From positions 1-40,941 of the forward strand of contig JAJDZJ010000081.1 in the NCBI GenBank assembly GCA_022824685.1: 40,941 nt of DNA, in the 5' to 3' direction. The DNA comes from Caldilineaceae bacterium (GTDB lineage: Bacteria > Chloroflexota > Anaerolineae > Caldilineales > Caldilineaceae). The notes below the pieces were generated by a model that saw only the letters and a list, made by a program, of their open reading frames with translations, did no database searches and had not been told where the DNA came from. Below are positions 29,610-39,928 of this stretch, piece after piece (position 1 is the first letter of the stretch; each line of letters starts with the position of its first letter). The translations under genes and the position numbers were made by a program.

Positions 29610-32555
29610 TCAGCCGCTCGCCAGCGCAGCCAGCAGCGCCAGCGCCAGCTTCTTCGTTTCCAGCAGCGGCCGCGGCTCCGCATGCCCGCTGACCTGCGTT
29701 CCGCCTTGGGCCGGGCTCGGGCCCGCCGCCCCCTCCCAGAACGAAACCTCCTGACCCGCTTGACCGGTCTCCCGAACCGCGGGGACGTGAGCGGAACTCT
29801 GCCCGCCGGACAACTGCCCGCCAGACAACTGCCCGCTGTCCACCCGCAACACGGGCCCCACACACGCGGGACATCCGAAGCGGCAAGCGCAGCGGCGGAT
29901 CAGGTCGGCAGTCCCGGCCATCAGCTCGTCGTGCCGGGCATACAACTGCGCGCTGAAACCGATCCCCGCCGGCACGCTCTCGTAAATGTAGACACGGGGG
30001 CCGGCCGGTTCGCCCTCCGCGGCGTGGGAAACAGACGGCGCGGCCTGAGGAGGCAGCCCGCGCTTCCCCTGCTCACGGATGATCGCAACCCCAATATCCC
30101 TCCGGTCGCACATCAAATGCAGGGGAGCCAGATTGCCAAGGGCGTATGCCACCCCGTCCATGCCCGTCCGCGCCCGCACACCCGCCTCCAGCCTGTGATG
30201 ACAGCGCCGGCACAGCAATACCAGGTTGCTTAGCCGGTTCGCCTCCCGGTCATTTCTGTTGAGTCTAGGAATGTAGTTGAAGACGCGGAACGGGACCCGA
30301 TGATGCACGTCATGCTGGCGACTGCCGCGCTCCGCCGCGCCGCATTCGGCGCAACGGAAGCCGTCCCTCTCCCGCGTCCTGGCGCGCTGCGCCTGCCAGT
30401 CGGGCCCGTAGTCATTGGGGGAATCCCGCCAGTCCCCCGCCGCCATCAGCGCCTTCTGCGCTTCGGCCGTCACCTCCACCCAATAGGCTGCTGTGTCCAG
30501 CGTGGTGGACGGGTAGTCTAGCGGCAGAACGCCCAGATTCTCATGCGTGAAGCGCCGCACTCTGCGGTACTGCGTCACCTGCGAGGTTACGATCACTTCA
30601 CCGTACCCCAACTGCGCCCCGCCGGCCGCACGGCTCTCCTCGACCGACCCTACCTCAATCTCGGTCTCCGTGCTGGCTTCTGTGTAAAACTCGACCTCCG
30701 CAGGCCAAACCCAGGCCAGTCTTTCCTCCAAGTCCAGCCTTTCCACCAGGTAGCTGCGGCCTTCATGCATGTAAACCGCCCCCTCATGGATCTGGAGCGG
30801 CGCGCTGGACGCGTCGACCTCCCCGATCACAGTGAACGCGCCTTCCTCCCTGCCAGGAGCCTGCCGGCCATCGGCCGCGGTCCGATTCGCCGCCACATCC
30901 CGCCGGCCTCCGCCGCCCGCCTGGGAACCACCCTCTCTGGCCCCCGCCTGAACAACAACAGGATCCCCGCCGGCGCTGCGCAGACTGAACTGGCGGGAGG
31001 GATAGCCGTCTCCGCGCCACAGGAAGCGGTTGCCAAACCGCTGCAAGCTCTCCTCTTCGACGAGCAGGTCGAGCACCTCACTGGAATAGGGAGAACGCCC
31101 GAACCGGTCCCCCTCCACAAAGGGGAGCTCAAACGCCGCGCAGCGCATCTGGTCCGCCAGCAGCGCCAGATTGTCCGCGTTGGCAAATGCCCTCTCAGGG
31201 GACCGCCGCAGCAGAAACTGCGGATTGCTGACAATATACTGGTCCAGCGCCCCGGCAGTTGCCACCAGGACCGCAACAGATTCTCCCGTGGTGCGTCCCA
31301 CCCGCCCCCACTGCTGCCACGTCGCCGCAATCGTACCTGGGTAGCCGCAAATCACCGCCGCCTCCAGCTGGCCGATGTCAATTCCCAACTCCAGCGCATT
31401 CGTGGCGACCACGCCCCGCACCCTGCCTGTCCGCAGACCGGCCTCAATTTCGCGGCGTTCACGGGGCAGATATCCTCCTCGGTACCCTCGCACCGACCGC
31501 GGTTGAAGAGGCACAGGATCCCCCCCCTCCTCATCGCCACTGCCCTGCAGCCGTTCCCGTATATAGCTGAGCAGCAGCTCCACGGTCAGGCGGGCGCGAC
31601 CGAAAACAATCGTCTGCAGACCGCCTCGCAAAAAACGGACGGCCAGTTCCTGGCTCTCCAAAACGCTGCTGCGCCGCAGACCCTGAATCGGATCGTACAG
31701 GGGCGGCGCATACAATACAATGTGCTTGCTCCCCTGCGGCGCCCCGTTGTCGTTGACGACCTGGACAGCGCCTTCCGTAAGGCTATCAGCCAGCTGCATT
31801 GGATTGGCGATCGTTGCGCTCGTCAGCAAGAACTGCGGGCGCGCCCCATAGTGGGCCGCGACCCGCCGCAGCCGCCGCAGCACATTCGCCACGTGGCTGC
31901 CGAACACTCCGCGATAACTGTGCATTTCGTCTATGACCACATAGCGCAGCCCCGCGAAAAAACGCTCCCAGTCCCCATGATGGGGCAATATCCCCGCATG
32001 AAGCATGTCCGGATTCGTCAGTATCAGCCTCGCATTCTGCCGGATCGGACGCCGTTGCGCGCCCGGCGTATCTCCGTCATAAGCCGCCGCAATCTGGCCG
32101 GCAGCCAGGCCGGATGAACTGGCGCCGCCCGTCTCCCTTCTCCCATCCGCAGCCAGATGACCCGCGTCCTTCAATTCGATTATCCATTCGTGGATCTCTG
32201 CCAGCTGATCGTGGGCCAGCGCTTTCGTGGGAAAGAGGAAAAGCGCCGTTGCCTCGGCGTCCTGGAGCAGCGCATGCAGAACCGGCAGCATGTAACATAG
32301 CGTCTTGCCGCTTGCAGTCGGCGTCACGACCGCCACCGAACTCCGCCCCTCCAGTGCAAGGGTAACTGCCTCGGCCTGATGGCTGTAAAGCCGCTCTATT
32401 CCGCGCCCAACGAGCGCCCCCCTCACCGCCGGATGCAGCGCTGCCGGAATCTCTCCATAGCGCCCCGTCCGCGCAGGCAATGTTTCCCACGCGGTGACGT
32501 TGGCCATGAAGCCGCGGTCCCGCCGCAACTCGGCGATGACTTCCCTGATGCTCAT
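29610..32555 (-). CDS. MrfA/YprA-like DEAD-box helicase with inserted HNH domain and DUF1998-type C-terminus
   Basis: 981-aa superfamily 2 helicase. Walker A TPTASGKT (78-85), motif II DEMH (209-212), motif III TSATIANP (245-252) and motif VI QQWGRVGR (414-421). The C-terminal region matches the DUF1998/zinc domain of MrfA-type repair helicases: NLAPLHLMCDRRDIG (808-822), YIYESVPAGIGFS (856-868) and the Cys cluster CACRFGCPAC (889-898). Between residues about 720 and 792 sits a complete HNH signature: CAEC (735-738), HDVHH (748-752), N777 in RLSNLVLLC, and CRRCHH (782-787). Low-complexity stretches occur at about 532-570 and 907-930. It is the last gene of a minus-strand operon after the F420 reductase. 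Likely role: DNA repair or defence, with a nuclease built in. Confidence 0.9.
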   Translation of the reverse strand: MSIREVIAELRRDRGFMANVTAWETLPARTGRYGEIPAALHPAVRGALVGRGIERLYSHQAEAVTLALEGRSSVAVVTPTASGKTLCYMLPVLHALLQDAEATALFLFPTKALAHDQLAEIHEWIIELKDAGHLAADGRRETGGASSSGLAAGQIAAAYDGDTPGAQRRPIRQNARLILTNPDMLHAGILPHHGDWERFFAGLRYVVIDEMHSYRGVFGSHVANVLRRLRRVAAHYGARPQFLLTSATIANPMQLADSLTEGAVQVVNDNGAPQGSKHIVLYAPPLYDPIQGLRRSSVLESQELAVRFLRGGLQTIVFGRARLTVELLLSYIRERLQGSGDEEGGDPVPLQPRSVRGYRGGYLPRERREIEAGLRTGRVRGVVATNALELGIDIGQLEAAVICGYPGTIAATWQQWGRVGRTTGESVAVLVATAGALDQYIVSNPQFLLRRSPERAFANADNLALLADQMRCAAFELPFVEGDRFGRSPYSSEVLDLLVEEESLQRFGNRFLWRGDGYPSRQFSLRSAGGDPVVVQAGAREGGSQAGGGGRRDVAANRTAADGRQAPGREEGAFTVIGEVDASSAPLQIHEGAVYMHEGRSYLVERLDLEERLAWVWPAEVEFYTEASTETEIEVGSVEESRAAGGAQLGYGEVIVTSQVTQYRRVRRFTHENLGVLPLDYPSTTLDTAAYWVEVTAEAQKALMAAGDWRDSPNDYGPDWQAQRARTRERDGFRCAECGAAERGSRQHDVHHRVPFRVFNYIPRLNRNDREANRLSNLVLLCRRCHHRLEAGVRARTGMDGVAYALGNLAPLHLMCDRRDIGVAIIREQGKRGLPPQAAPSVSHAAEGEPAGPRVYIYESVPAGIGFSAQLYARHDELMAGTADLIRRCACRFGCPACVGPVLRVDSGQLSGGQLSGGQSSAHVPAVRETGQAGQEVSFWEGAAGPSPAQGGTQVSGHAEPRPLLETKKLALALLAALASG

Positions 32556-34921: not shown

Positions 34922-35914
34922 GTGAAAATTCTGGTAACGGGCGGGGCCGGTTTCATTGGCAGCCACATCATTCGCTGGCTGGGCAAGGCTGGCCACGATG
35001 TCGTAGCCGCTGACAGCCTGAGAACCGGCAAACGGACTAATCTCCCCCCAGACGTTCCCCTCTATGAAGTGGATATCCGCGACCGGGACGGGCTGGCGGA
35101 ACTGTTCGCCGCCGAACGTCCGCAGGCCGTCCTGCATCAGGCTGCCCTGGCCAACGTTCGCGAAAGCATGGAGGATCCCATTACCTACGCCGAGGTAAAC
35201 ATTATCGGCACTTTGCATCTGTTGGAGCTGGCGAAAGACCATAACTGCGCCAAATTCATATTCGCCAGCACCGGCGGCGCAGTCTATGGGGAAGGCAAAT
35301 CTCCCGTTCTGGCCCTCGACGAATCCGAAGAGGAAAGAGACACGATCCCCGATCCGCAAGCGCCGCCCTTTACCGAGGAAAGCCGTCCGCAGCCGAAAGA
35401 CAACTACGGCGCCAACAAACTCAACTGCGAACACTACATAGAGTTGTACTATCAGAACTATGACCTGCCATACGTCATCCTCCGTTATGCCAACGTCTAC
35501 GGCCCGCGACAGGACGTAAAGGGGGAGGCTGGCGTCGTCGCCATCTTCGCCGGAGCCATGCTCGCCGACCACGCGACCCGCATCACCGGCGATGGCCGCC
35601 AAAAGCGCGACTTTGTCTACGTGGACGATGTCGCCAGGGCCAACGTGATCGCTCTGAACAGCGAAGTGACCGGAACCTACAACGTGGGCACCGGCCTTCC
35701 TACCGACATAAACACGGTCTATCGCCTTCTCGCCGACCTGACCGAATACCGACGCTCGCCCTCCTACATGCCCCGCCCCGCCGGTGAAGTGCTGGCCACC
35801 TGGTTGGACTGTTCCAAGGCTGGGAGGGAATTGGGCTGGGAGGCTAATGTTGACCTCCATGAAGGGCTCCGCCGGACTGTGGCGTGGGCTAGAGCAACTT
35901 TGGTCGACGCCTAG
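34922..35914 (+). CDS. Nucleotide-sugar epimerase/dehydratase (UDP-glucose 4-epimerase-like)
   Basis: 330-aa extended SDR. Rossmann motif GGAGFIGSH (7-15), D31 after beta-2 for NAD, FASTGGAVYGEG (114-125) with the catalytic Thr/Ser, and Y162-x3-K166 (YGANK). The RYANVYGPRQ and RDFVYVDDVARANVIAL blocks are typical of UDP-sugar epimerases. The start is GTG, with AGAGGAG eight bases upstream. A TATACT (34877-34882) in the 257-bp divergent gap could be its -10 box. It probably supplies an activated sugar; the glycosyltransferase follows 50 bp later. Confidence 0.9.
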   Translation: MKILVTGGAGFIGSHIIRWLGKAGHDVVAADSLRTGKRTNLPPDVPLYEVDIRDRDGLAELFAAERPQAVLHQAALANVRESMEDPITYAEVNIIGTLHLLELAKDHNCAKFIFASTGGAVYGEGKSPVLALDESEEERDTIPDPQAPPFTEESRPQPKDNYGANKLNCEHYIELYYQNYDLPYVILRYANVYGPRQDVKGEAGVVAIFAGAMLADHATRITGDGRQKRDFVYVDDVARANVIALNSEVTGTYNVGTGLPTDINTVYRLLADLTEYRRSPSYMPRPAGEVLATWLDCSKAGRELGWEANVDLHEGLRRTVAWARATLVDA

Positions 35915-35964: not shown

Positions 35965-36966
35965 ATGCACATTGTCGTCAATGGCTGGTTTTGGGGACAA
36001 CCCAACACCGGCAGCGGTCAGTACCTGCACCGGCTGTTGCCCCATCTGGCCGCACTGAATGCCCCCCCCGCGTCCGACAACGGCGAAAGCGGCCAGGAGA
36101 CCCACAGGTTCACGCTGCTTCTGCCTCGCCACCCCAAACAGAGCCAAAGCCTCTCCCCCGTCCCCGCCCCGCTGACCACAGTCGTTTCCCCGCCCCCGCG
36201 ACTCCCCCGTCAACTGGGCAAGCTCTACTGGGAGCAAGTCACGGTGCCTCGCCGCGCGCGCGGCTTGGGCGCAGACCTGCTGATCGTGCCCTATTGGGCC
36301 GCGCCCCTGTGGCAGCCCGCGCCGACCGCAGTCACCATCCACGATCTAATCCCCCTCCTCCTGCCTCCCTACCGAGGAGGATGGCTGGTACGGCAATACA
36401 CCAGGCTGGTCTCCCTTTCGGCCCGGCGTTGCGCCGCCGTACTGTCCGTAAGCGAAGCGAGCAAGCGCGACATCGTTCGTCATCTCAGCATTCCCGAAGA
36501 ACGCGTCTTTGCCATCCATCACGGGCCTAACACCGATGAACTGAACGACGAAAGCGTGGCCTTTGACCGCAGCCGCCATCGCTTTCGGCAAATCGCGCAA
36601 AAATACGCCCTGCCGGACCGCTACTTTTTCTATCTTGGCGGCTTTGATGTGCGCAAAAACGTCTTGGGAATCGTACGCGCCTACCGCAGATACCTCGACC
36701 TCGGCGGCGACCCGTCAATAAAACTGGTCCTCGCAGGCACAATGCCCCGCCAGGACACGCCCTTCTTCCCAGACCCGCGGCGGCTCGTCAGCCAGCTCGA
36801 ACTGCACGACCAGGTGCGCTGCATCGGTTGGGTGGAGGAGGAAGACAAGGCCGCCCTCTATTCCGCCTCCGTTGCCTTTCTCTTCCCCAGCAGATACGAG
36901 GGCTTCGGCATGATGCTGCTGGAAGCCATGGCCGCCGGCGCCCCCGCAATTACCAGTTCGGAGTAA
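35965..36966 (+). CDS. GT4-family glycosyltransferase, C-terminally truncated
   Basis: 333-aa GT-B glycosyltransferase. The N-terminal acceptor domain starts MHIVVNGWFWGQPNTGSGQYLHRLLPHL. The donor domain includes DRYFFYLGGFDVRKNVLGIVRAYRRYL, then CIGWVEEEDKAALYSASVAFLFPSRYEGFG with the E-x7-E motif (E312, E320). It stops after GAPAITSSE, where relatives continue with SLPEV-type sequence and about 40-60 more residues including the last helices that close the fold. Its final 17 bp overlap the end of the convergent LysM gene. The protein may be inactive or a product of rearrangement. Confidence 0.85.
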   Translation: MHIVVNGWFWGQPNTGSGQYLHRLLPHLAALNAPPASDNGESGQETHRFTLLLPRHPKQSQSLSPVPAPLTTVVSPPPRLPRQLGKLYWEQVTVPRRARGLGADLLIVPYWAAPLWQPAPTAVTIHDLIPLLLPPYRGGWLVRQYTRLVSLSARRCAAVLSVSEASKRDIVRHLSIPEERVFAIHHGPNTDELNDESVAFDRSRHRFRQIAQKYALPDRYFFYLGGFDVRKNVLGIVRAYRRYLDLGGDPSIKLVLAGTMPRQDTPFFPDPRRLVSQLELHDQVRCIGWVEEEDKAALYSASVAFLFPSRYEGFGMMLLEAMAAGAPAITSSE

Positions 36967-39928
36967 GCTGGAACTCAAACTCCTCTCCGCTGTTCGGCGC
37001 ATAGCAGACCTGGCGAATGCTCAGCGCAGGGTGTTCACTCCCAAACTCCTCGGTGATCTGCCACAGTTCCGGACTATCCAGAAATATCGACAACACCGAG
37101 GCGCAGGCCGCCACAGGGTTGGGGACCGATGTGTATGCCTCCAACCAGGCCCCCGCCGCTTCCGTGTACCTGCTGTCAGGCTCGTTTTCCTCCAGCTCTT
37201 CCAGCAGCGCTTCCGCTTCCGTTCGCTGCCCATTCAATGTCAGAACCTGCAACAGCCTGAAACTCGCCAGGCCCCGCAACAGAGCCATCTCCTCTTCCGG
37301 ATCAGTCCCCTGGACACTGCAAGGCTGTAGACTCGGAGACTCCAATGCAGCCCTATACATCTCGATAGCAGTCCCGTAGCTGGTCCGGTTTTCTTCCAGC
37401 CCCGCCGACTGCAGCGCCGCATTCGCCTCGATCAATCGCAGCCCCAAGCAGTTGCTGGCGTCGTTCGCCCGGTCATAAGACCAGGTGAAACGGCGCATTG
37501 GCAACCCATCCATGCTGTACCAGATCTCCGTGTGAGGAATGTTCAATCCTTTTGCATCCGTTCCTCTGACGCCGCCGCGCAGCCACAGACGCCGAATTCG
37601 CGGAAGCGCTGACGACTCCTCATCAACCATGTCAACCAGAACAGTGCCTTCGATAATGGTGGCGCCAGGCCCAATCACCGATTCGTATGCGCCGCTTTCG
37701 TTGTTCCATGTCATGACATTCACAGTGACCAGACAGAATGTGGAACAGCGCACCAACTGCCAGACCAAATCCGGGCTGCCGTCGCCGTTGGCATCTCCAA
37801 TTTTCAGGACTGTGGGCTGTCCCTCGACTTCCGGCGCATAGGCCGTCTCAAAACTGCCGTCCACGCGCTGGTGCAGGATCAGTACAGCGCCATCCGACCC
37901 GCCCGGTCCGAACCCTTCATCGCTTACAACCGTCGGCATCGCGACCACGTCGTCCAAACCATCCTCGTTCAAATCGTAAATCAACAGCCCCCCGCGCGCG
38001 TCCCCGACCGCGTCACAGGCCTGCAGCCAGGCCTCGAGAAAGACCTTCATCCTCACTTTCTCTTCCTCGCCGCTTCCGCCGCCCGAAAGCGCAGACACGA
38101 CCTCAGGTAGTACGGCCAGGTACGCCGCCGATGTCTCCGGACATTCAGGCAGTCCTTCAATCTGGGATATACGGGGATCGGGCCCCGCGTCCAACTCGAT
38201 CTCCAAATATGGGCAGACGTCTGCCGCCGTAAAAGTAGGATTGGCGTAGCCGAAGTCGGACAGTATCTCCACCAGTTCAGGCGTATCCGCAGCAAAGTTG
38301 TTGACCGATTGACACGCTCTGTTCGCGTCCCCGCTCTGTTGGTAGGATGCCAGCCACCTTACCCCCGCCTCCGCGTAAGTCTGTCTACTGTATGCCGCCG
38401 CTAGCCGCTCCACACGCGCCGCAGCCAGCTCAGCATCCGACAAATAGCCCGCAATCACCGCCAGCCGGAAGAGCGAAAAACTGCGTAACTCGGCCAGCTC
38501 GTCTTCGCGATGCCCACAAGCCTCCAGGCTTTGATTCTCGATCGCGTCCGTATAGAGCCACTGCGCTTTCTCCAGATACAACTCTTCCGTCAACGCGTGG
38601 TTCGCATCGATCACCAGATGGTATAGGCACTTGCTCGGCGCCACTCTCTCGCTCGTCAGTGTGTAGGGGCCCCCGCTCGCGCTGGTCCAGATAGTTGTGC
38701 GCACTCTCTGCGGGCCCGCAGAGGCTCCTGTATACTGGCCGCCTGTCAATTGAATCTCCTTTGGCTCACCCGGCGAACTGCTGGCCGTCAGTGATACGTT
38801 CGCCGAAGCCATCGTAATCGTGCCTTTGGTCCAGTCTCGCCACGCTATGCCATCCCAACTCCGCACATGCACCGTCACAAAGCAGGAAGTCGGTCCGCAT
38901 ACTGTGTCCGTCCAGACGACATCCGTCAGACCGTCGGCGTTAATATCCTGTGTCGCCAGCACATCGATCGTTCCCGTCGCCGCGATTTCGTAACTGAGTG
39001 TGTGCCCCGCCCCCCCGTCGAGTATGACAAGCTGCTGCTGTCCGGCGGAAACTCCGGTTCCTCCGCTGGCCGAACTCGAGCCCGTTGGTTGCCCGTCTGT
39101 ATTGGTAAACACAAGCACGGCGTCTTCCACGCGGTCGGCATTGAAGTCCGCATTGACCAGGGCTCGAAATTCAACCCCGCAATCGGCCAGAAATGAACTG
39201 AGCTGCGCCTGGCGGCTGGAGGTGGGGATCCTGAACAGGGCCGTCAGCGTATCGCCCAGCCCACCAGGCGCGTCCGGGCACGGTGGCAAAGTAACCCGCC
39301 TCGGCAATGGCAGGCTGATGTTGGGCATGAAGAACGGCTCCGGTTCGCTGTCCGATGACAGAATCGCCAGTATGTCGATCACCGGAGTTGGCGTAGCCGC
39401 AGGCGGAGCGCTCTCTATCGGCGTCGCCGTGGGTGTAGCTGTCGACACGACGTTCGCCGCGACTGTCGCCGGGACAGTCGCCTCCCTTTCCGGCGCGCCC
39501 GTCGCCGTCGGCGCCAGCCCCGGCTGTCCTCCAGGAATCAGCAGCCGCTCTCCCACGAGCAGGGAATTGTCCGCCCGCTGCGAATTCGGATTCGCCCCCT
39601 GCAAAATCTCGAGCGGCACGCCAAACTTCTCCGCTACCGAAATCCAGCCCTCTCCCCGCTGAACAATATAGGACGTATCTTCCCCGTCCGGCGCCCACGG
39701 GATAAACAGCCGCTCTCCAATGATGAGCCAACCGTTCGTTCGCACTGAGTCCGGATTCGCCTCCTGCAACTCCTCTACAGTCAACCCGACTCGCTGGGCG
39801 ACCAGCGGCCAACTATCTCCCGGCTGAACAATGTATGTATAGCCCCGCTCCTGTGCTGTAACGGAAACGAACTGCAACAAAAGTAGTAACGCAATCAACG
39901 ATAACGCAATCCGCAGAACCAGCTTCAT
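36950..39928 (-). CDS. Secreted LysM protein with duplicated FG-GAP-like/TPR-like module
   Basis: 992 aa. N-terminal signal peptide (MKLVLRIALSLIALLLLLQFVSVTA), then two LysM domains (about 31-77 and 86-132) expected to bind peptidoglycan or related glycan, a Thr/Pro/Ala-rich linker (about 135-195), and two homologous modules (about 215-575 and 594-975). Each module has two Ca-loop-like repeats (DFNADRVED, DINADGLTD; DLNEDGLDD, DANGDGSPD), then a helical part with matching ANxAL, LRSFSLFRL/LRGLASFRL, YAEAGVRWL/YTEAAGAWL and a closing VC. The ATG at 39928 is preferred over an upstream TTG because GGAGAG lies just before it. No enzyme motif is seen. Confidence 0.85.
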   Translation of the reverse strand: MKLVLRIALSLIALLLLLQFVSVTAQERGYTYIVQPGDSWPLVAQRVGLTVEELQEANPDSVRTNGWLIIGERLFIPWAPDGEDTSYIVQRGEGWISVAEKFGVPLEILQGANPNSQRADNSLLVGERLLIPGGQPGLAPTATGAPEREATVPATVAANVVSTATPTATPIESAPPAATPTPVIDILAILSSDSEPEPFFMPNISLPLPRRVTLPPCPDAPGGLGDTLTALFRIPTSSRQAQLSSFLADCGVEFRALVNADFNADRVEDAVLVFTNTDGQPTGSSSASGGTGVSAGQQQLVILDGGAGHTLSYEIAATGTIDVLATQDINADGLTDVVWTDTVCGPTSCFVTVHVRSWDGIAWRDWTKGTITMASANVSLTASSSPGEPKEIQLTGGQYTGASAGPQRVRTTIWTSASGGPYTLTSERVAPSKCLYHLVIDANHALTEELYLEKAQWLYTDAIENQSLEACGHREDELAELRSFSLFRLAVIAGYLSDAELAAARVERLAAAYSRQTYAEAGVRWLASYQQSGDANRACQSVNNFAADTPELVEILSDFGYANPTFTAADVCPYLEIELDAGPDPRISQIEGLPECPETSAAYLAVLPEVVSALSGGGSGEEEKVRMKVFLEAWLQACDAVGDARGGLLIYDLNEDGLDDVVAMPTVVSDEGFGPGGSDGAVLILHQRVDGSFETAYAPEVEGQPTVLKIGDANGDGSPDLVWQLVRCSTFCLVTVNVMTWNNESGAYESVIGPGATIIEGTVLVDMVDEESSALPRIRRLWLRGGVRGTDAKGLNIPHTEIWYSMDGLPMRRFTWSYDRANDASNCLGLRLIEANAALQSAGLEENRTSYGTAIEMYRAALESPSLQPCSVQGTDPEEEMALLRGLASFRLLQVLTLNGQRTEAEALLEELEENEPDSRYTEAAGAWLEAYTSVPNPVAACASVLSIFLDSPELWQITEEFGSEHPALSIRQVCYAPNSGEEFEFQLTPNW

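Follow-up and report, generated by a model that had tools for sequence, protein, structure and literature searches.

The open reading frame at positions 36950-39928 of the window, by which we mean the whole 40,941-nucleotide stretch of a Caldilineaceae bacterium (contig JAJDZJ010000081.1, positions 1 to 40,941), encodes a 992-residue LysM protein carrying two copies of a composite module. The module represents a genuine domain family that has no name, is assembled from known parts and has so far been found in Chloroflexota; outside this phylum, coverage consisted of a plasmid search and a pattern scan reaching close relatives only. Our models suggest that it combines an incomplete FG-GAP/integrin-type beta-propeller with a helical cap resembling tetratricopeptide repeats (TPR). 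For the protein as a whole we tentatively favour, at a little under an even chance, the role of a secreted adaptor of the envelope, tethered to peptidoglycan, with outer modules that bind a protein or glycan of the envelope. The gene and its parts are as follows.

36950..39928, minus strand: whole gene, 992 amino acids plus stop, read as an open frame; no internal stop in 15 of 15 relative loci
39854..39928, minus strand: putative signal peptide, residues 1-25 (MKLVLRIALSLIALLLLLQFVSVTA), placed by eye
39698..39835, minus strand: LysM domain 1, residues 32-77 (Pfam PF01476, protein E 1.3e-12)
39533..39676, minus strand: LysM domain 2, about residues 85-132, the second LysM stretch, placed with a local LysM profile
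39314..39508, minus strand: Thr/Pro/Ala-rich linker, residues 141-205, read from the sequence
38180..39313, minus strand: module A, residues 206-583, from the alignment of the halves, a profile match and an AlphaFold2 model (mean predicted local distance difference test, pLDDT, 70)
39122..39148, minus strand: degenerate calcium-type loop of module A, residues 261-269 (DFNADRVED), its Gly lost
38921..38947, minus strand: calcium-type loop of module A, residues 328-336 (DINADGLTD), strict pattern
38705..38719, minus strand: AGPQR motif, residues 404-408, a candidate binding site from row conservation
38204..38629, minus strand: TPR-like helical part of module A, about residues 434-575, from model helices and TPR chains in the structure comparison
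36953..38179, minus strand: module B, residues 584-992, from the alignment of the halves and an AlphaFold2 model (pLDDT 76)
37949..37975, minus strand: calcium-type loop of module B, residues 652-660 (DLNEDGLDD), where the FG-GAP_3 match (652-723) starts
37769..37795, minus strand: calcium-type loop of module B, residues 712-720 (DANGDGSPD), strict pattern, within the FG-GAP_3 match
37004..37450, minus strand: TPR-like helical part of module B, about residues 827-975, from model helices and a TPR_14 match of 18.2 bits, under the cut-off

The two halves align from end to end. Residues 214-572 against 593-975 give a Smith-Waterman score of 253, and 1000 shuffles reached a mean of 38 and a maximum of 64, which rules out chance similarity and bears out an earlier note on this DNA that had described, in a frame whose position it gave correctly, two aligned copies of about 380 residues. 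The segments it had matched between the halves (LRSFSLFRL with LRGLASFRL, WLASY with WLEAY, and the closing cysteines) are present, and each half contains eight cysteines, every one of them in a column common to both. Its two calcium loops per half follow the strict pattern at 328, 652 and 712, but in the first half the earlier loop (261-269) lacks the Gly. Ahead of the modules, PF01476 recognises two stretches with 47.8 bits against a cut-off of 20.9, so that both LysM domains of the earlier description “secreted LysM protein” stand; secretion itself is probable, given a hydrophobic N-terminus ending in VTA and read as a signal peptide by eye. No lipobox-like cysteine lies near the N-terminus of the window protein, and by eye it has neither a transmembrane nor a cytoplasmic part. 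The Thr/Pro linker that the same description mentioned was also found, rich in Ala as well, and has the highest ratio of nonsynonymous to synonymous substitution rates (dN/dS) of the protein (0.37-0.39 in comparisons with L009 and L019; 0.12-0.15 for the whole gene in comparisons with three relatives). A GGAG read directly from the sequence stands just upstream of the ATG at 39928, and this start coincides with an aligned ATG in 12 of 15 close relatives, the remaining three (L014, L017 and L023) having no ATG at the aligned position.

No Pfam or NCBIfam model covers a module in either the window protein or 35 diverse members, and the full-length match to a described family that might have explained it away did not appear. 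The composite is thus outside named families, as had been supposed from the sequence; what does not hold is that the module is unknown throughout, as its first part is FG-GAP and its second TPR-like. FG-GAP_3 matches module B at residues 652-723 over threshold (E 9.6e-8, 33 bits against 26.9), the FG-GAP match in module A is weak (15.3 against a cut-off of 22.1), and the window protein remains under the Pfam TPR cut-offs (14.1 against 25 for TPR_19; 18.2 against 23.5 for TPR_14). Among the 35 diverse members, FG-GAP_3 matches 22 at E <= 0.01 and TPR_14 matches six, and a profile made from all 35, compared with solved structures, finds integrin alpha-L over the loop region (E 2.1e-5) and a designed consensus TPR over the helical region (E 0.0098). 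Structure prediction, a check proposed in the earlier note, gave AlphaFold2 models (B: pLDDT 76, predicted template modelling score (pTM) 0.71; A: pLDDT 70, pTM 0.57) in which a pair of helices at the N-terminus is followed by 15 strands in B or 12 in A and then by eight helices, a strand count that would correspond, at moderate confidence, to three to four blades per module. A structural aligner superposed the strands on propellers of integrin and DDB1, with a best Z of 8.9 for B and 9.5 for A (integrin alpha-V 8.2 and 9.4, respectively), and the helices on TPR-type chains (Z 9.1 for B, on FKBP38; 10.2 and 10.0 for A, on NprR and ybgF). Z values of about 8-10 to propellers and TPR-type chains are suggestive and not proof. 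Together, the helices of the models, the consensus-TPR profile match and the fold alignments agree with the TPR-like helical part proposed earlier.

Propeller-like domains also occur in proteins that block wall-cutting enzymes, and the module might be such an inhibitor, fixed to the wall it protects. One report describes a common beta-propeller topology for XAC2610, Tsi1 and PliI-Ah, all peptidoglycan hydrolase inhibitors (PMC10933484), and an XAC2610_fam match does lie inside module B (residues 709-749, E 0.011), with one of the 35 members matching at E 2.1e-4. However, the module B match scores 16.2 bits against a cut-off of 35 (NF047539), which led us to reject membership of the XAC2610 family, and it amounts to 41 residues around a calcium loop that is common to FG-GAP proteins. 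Nor is there a peptidoglycan hydrolase among ten annotated window proteins or ten neighbours in relatives. Moreover, no counterpart of the helical half or of AGPQR is known in these inhibitors, which we count against this explanation, and we consider it quite improbable.

The module is close to universal in the window's family and widespread in its class, where “family” and “class” denote group codes and the window's family is presumed to be Caldilineaceae. A pattern scan of genome contigs returned 15 distinct loci, all labelled Caldilineaceae, with 58-92% identity in the best segment and no internal stops. A narrow profile finds 118 of 396 class genomes (E <= 1e-3) and 10 of 400 in a phylum sample; with a broad profile, the figures rise to 160 of 396 (E <= 1e-10) and 44 of 400 (E <= 1e-5), partial matches included. 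Of the latter 44, 15 have a match spanning at least 340 of 371 profile positions, and six of these 15 lie outside the class. Candidates scored per genome were the best five for the class with the broad profile and up to 43 for the family, and the counts outside the family therefore express presence and not copy number. Within the family, the broad profile matches 45 of 46 genomes and all 24 of good quality, which, with the 160 of the class, supplies the spread across genomes that had been called for. Two matches fall within one open frame of more than 900 residues in 38 of the 46 (the second being partial in G322); the other eight have shorter frames, a single module (G746) or, in the 88% complete G749, no match. 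Beyond the family, four loci of group f17 have two modules and the fetched loci of other groups have one. A tblastn search for which the module of one relative (L054) served as query returned no match in 72,556 plasmids, and plasmid-borne spread was set aside. Three relatives have versions of their own: that of G746 (L119:5327-7369, 680 residues) ends after module A, and others of its genus code have two modules, which makes a secondary loss of module B likely; a single-module relative (L063:7578-9380) has a stretch resembling SdrD_B after the module, at 29.3 bits against a cut-off of 29.7; and in L071:7157-8692 an Asp/Gly-rich insertion splits the helical part.

This distribution bears on whether the protein serves host interaction in sponge symbionts as a “eukaryotic-like” TPR protein. 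One survey reports repeat proteins in sponge-associated Chloroflexi, discussing ankyrin (ANK), TPR and leucine-rich (LRR) repeats, and, for Caldilineae and Anaerolineae, a large number of LysM (CBM50) modules (PMC6306507). Presence in 45 of 46 family and 160 of 396 class genomes, figures that record presence and not habitat, gives the look of a core gene and not of a niche adaptation, however, and we hold this role to be very unlikely indeed.

The simplest account of how the two-module protein arose, judging from the trees, is that a single tandem duplication preceded the separation of f17 from the window's family and that the anchor changed once. In a tree of 52 module rows, which omits four rows with long branches as well as 25 loci that are truncated or nearly duplicate others, all 18 B rows, f17 included, form one clade (98/93) and the A rows lie elsewhere; a larger quick tree of 78 of the 100 rows, in which the long rows are kept, agrees on the B group with a Shimodaira-Hasegawa-like approximate likelihood ratio (SH-aLRT) support of 98. 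Recent duplication or gene conversion is unsupported, given that the B rows of the family and f17 group apart from the A rows. A topology with A and B as one clade apart from single-module LysM proteins received p 0.265 in the approximately unbiased (AU) test. The presence of LysM changes once in the 52-row tree, on a branch (100/99) between 44 LysM rows and eight rows without LysM, L092 being scored as LysM although its N-terminus is cut. With the root placed by our own choice among the lipoproteins, the change reads as a gain of LysM.

The anchors and the cysteines follow the same division. A lipobox-like cysteine, by a pattern shaped after viewing the sequences, is found in 13 of 13 proteins without LysM versus 2 of 46 LysM proteins, both from one genus. 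With one alignment column of slack and related sequences making up the counts, all eight cysteines are present in each of the 37 B rows and the 11 single LysM rows and in 35 of the 39 A rows, the four exceptions among the A rows being two partial rows and two, from the genus of the lipobox-bearing LysM proteins, without 217, 434 and 471. None of the extra cysteines of the LysM forms (217, 250, 434, 471) occurs in any of the 13 lipoproteins, and the core cysteines (344, 349, 539, 572) are retained in 12 of them, the thirteenth being split by an insertion. An extra FG-GAP-type loop just before the GG motif is found in 6 of 13 lipoprotein relatives (L064, L065, L066, L069, L070, L071) and in three of the four module-A copies of f17 (L058, L059, L093); in the window's family it appears in 1 of 35 A and 1 of 33 B rows, in the single LysM forms in 0 of 11, and in shuffles at 0.13%. 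The extra loop in both lipoprotein relatives and f17 module A suggests that the state of two loops per module is probably derived.

Since their duplication the two modules have diverged at a site of possible functional interest. The Arg of AGPQR (408 in the window) is present in all 63 module-A and single-module rows, the 13 lipoproteins included, and in none of 37 B rows; P406 and Q407 are found in 57 and 56 of the 63, respectively, and each in 3 of the 37. Of 35 family A rows, 17 come from the window, the 15 pattern-scan loci and one genome of the same genus, so these conservation counts are not independent events. Both modules are under purifying selection (dN/dS against two close relatives of 0.124-0.128 for B and 0.126-0.144 for A), from which it appears that B took on another task; module B was probably repurposed rather than decayed, though G746 does without it. 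An invariant Arg could also belong to an active site, and one might picture a propeller-type enzyme, resembling GH43 or a lyase, that acts on carbohydrates outside the cell. GH43 and GH130 propellers are among the weak Foldseek matches, a profile search of the Protein Data Bank (PDB) gives YesW/YesX E 0.017 and 0.19, and three acidic positions outside the first two loops are well kept (E391 in 54, D441 in 58 and E477 in 57 of 63 rows). Yet these E-values are weak, in a comparison that included no search of CAZy families as such, the models have only about three to four blades, E391 occupies the position of the relatives' third loop, and D441 and E477 fall in the helical part, leaving an enzyme highly doubtful in our estimation.

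The envelope adaptor that we favour would work as follows. The signal peptide would export the protein, the two LysM domains would hold it to glycan strands, and the flexible linker would present the two modules, each of them an incomplete propeller of about three to four blades with calcium-type loops and a TPR-like cap closed by a disulphide. Module A, with AGPQR as in the single-module relatives, may bind the family's conserved partner, whether a protein or an envelope glycan, and module B, after one tandem duplication and divergence, presumably serves a second partner or a different geometry. The domain make-up, the duplication, the change of anchor, the module-specific conservation and the near-universal presence in the family are supported; we infer export, binding to the wall, to calcium and to a ligand, the disulphides and the adaptor role. 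We count in favour of this reading that the module has been retained with either of two anchors, a lipobox or LysM. One account has VCBS-like propellers typically recognising carbohydrates, and also proteins (PMC9218822).

Several observations weigh against an adaptor built in this way. Loop 1 of module A is degenerate, and the TPR matches of the window protein are all under Pfam cut-offs. Model confidence is only moderate (for B and A, pLDDT 76 and 70, pTM 0.71 and 0.57), Foldseek returned no match at E <= 0.001 for either module model, and, as the aligner itself warns, Z values of this size can reflect a common arrangement, those to TPR-type chains lying in a range common for repeats. In addition, G746 has module A only and G749 no match, the neighbourhood names no partner, and histidine kinases within 2-5 kb in some relatives leave a sensor role open.

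Those kinases would fit an envelope sensor, or its ligand-binding partner, that relays the state of the wall or of a ligand to a separate membrane kinase. The fold is of an extracytoplasmic ligand-binding type, the lipoprotein forms would sit at the membrane, and histidine kinases lie 2.4-5.1 kb away in seven loci (L054-L057, L058, L061, L071) from four groups (f24, f17, f32, f58). In f24 the kinase is on the same strand in all four loci, about 4.5-5.1 kb off; f17, f32 and f58 contribute single loci. Of the kinase cluster of eight, four proteins were checked with Pfam, and three have GAF domains. Kinases are common genes, however, their distance and strand differ between groups, none is among the annotated neighbours in the window or the family, and the window protein lacks, by eye, any transmembrane or cytoplasmic part of its own. 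We therefore judge a sensor unlikely. Across families, only widespread gene types recur in the fetched stretches, namely ABC transporters and histidine kinases, within several kb of the gene (4 of 14 and 4 of 8 cluster members Pfam-checked); to these is added a sugar epimerase with its antisense frame, both unannotated, in one f8 locus.

Two neighbours, identified by Pfam, lie downstream of the gene in the window.

35965..36966, plus strand: GT4-type glycosyltransferase, convergent, overlapping the gene's 3' end by 17 bp
34922..35914, plus strand: NAD-dependent sugar epimerase/dehydratase

Both are found downstream in 15 of 15 Caldilineaceae loci, and the 17-bp overlap may help to keep the C-terminal LTPNW invariant. 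In both the window and L082 the PF00534 match of the glycosyltransferase stops at position 122 of 172, and the protein ends soon after a PAITSS/PVITSS segment in nine loci (L010, L021, L082, L084-L088, L090); by these sequence ends it reads as a conserved shortened enzyme. A DUF3048 gene stands 4-215 bp upstream on the same strand in L082, L085, L086, L088, L089 and L090, all from other genera (Pfam for five); in the window's genome, two genes of this type are located on other contigs. As a conserved operon partner it was rejected, being found in these six loci of other family genera with none seen there in the window's genus. Elsewhere in the window, 29613-32555 (minus strand) encodes a helicase protein of MrfA-like type with DEAD, Helicase_C and MZB matches, in which an HNH endonuclease match at 735-789 adjoins the zinc-binding domain.

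Our adaptor reading can be carried further toward the architecture of the envelope. Litorilinea aerophila belongs to Caldilineaceae, and a study of its envelope describes an outer layer, an inner one whose composition is unknown, a layer resembling peptidoglycan that is located at the poles, and a lattice-like layer of protein (PMC13319060); the link that we draw to it is at the level of the family. The protein might be a structural component of the atypical Chloroflexota envelope that has gone unrecognised; an ancestral membrane lipoprotein would have become LysM- and peptidoglycan-bound, gained two more disulphides and then had its outer module doubled, so that in Caldilineaceae it would bridge the wall to the inner or the protein layer seen in Litorilinea aerophila. 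This scenario is speculative, and we would call it rather unlikely as a whole. No paper on the protein was found among the open-licence literature on Chloroflexota LysM, FG-GAP or TPR proteins, part of it covered by title. A LysM protein in 45 of 46 family genomes is a concrete candidate component of a poorly understood multilayered envelope. The family is also a natural experiment, with one change of anchor, one module duplication and a motif that one copy retains and the other has lost, and that motif points experimenters to the first residues to test.

Compared with known systems, the modules share with FG-GAP/VCBS-like propellers (integrin alpha; PF01839, PF13517) the Asp-rich DxNxDG loops spaced 60-67 residues apart, an FG-GAP_3 match over threshold in module B and the match of the family profile to integrin alpha-L; they differ in having about three to four blades, according to the models, followed by a helical cap, in a Cys pair just after the second loop and in AGPQR, which we place after the third blade. 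TPR proteins are approached through weak TPR profile matches, through fold alignments and, in the models, through what may be pairs of helices, but the window protein falls under the Pfam cut-offs, has the conserved Cys pair 539/572 and is probably extracytoplasmic. LysM surface proteins such as SAG1386/EF1546 and DipM likewise have N-terminal LysM domains and a Thr/Pro linker; in the window protein, by contrast, no peptidase or other wall enzyme domain was found, and the NCBIfam matches are under their cut-offs (46.4 against 80; 33.9 against 900). With the XAC2610/PliI/Tsi1 inhibitors the likeness is one of propeller-like topology (PMC10933484). The modules here nonetheless stay under the corresponding NCBIfam cut-off. 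No helical cap is known from those inhibitors. Similar in composition are CRTAC1-type FG-GAP/UnbV proteins joined to TPRs, in which FG-GAP and TPR occur in one protein and, by description, the order and the number of blades differ from those of the window protein.

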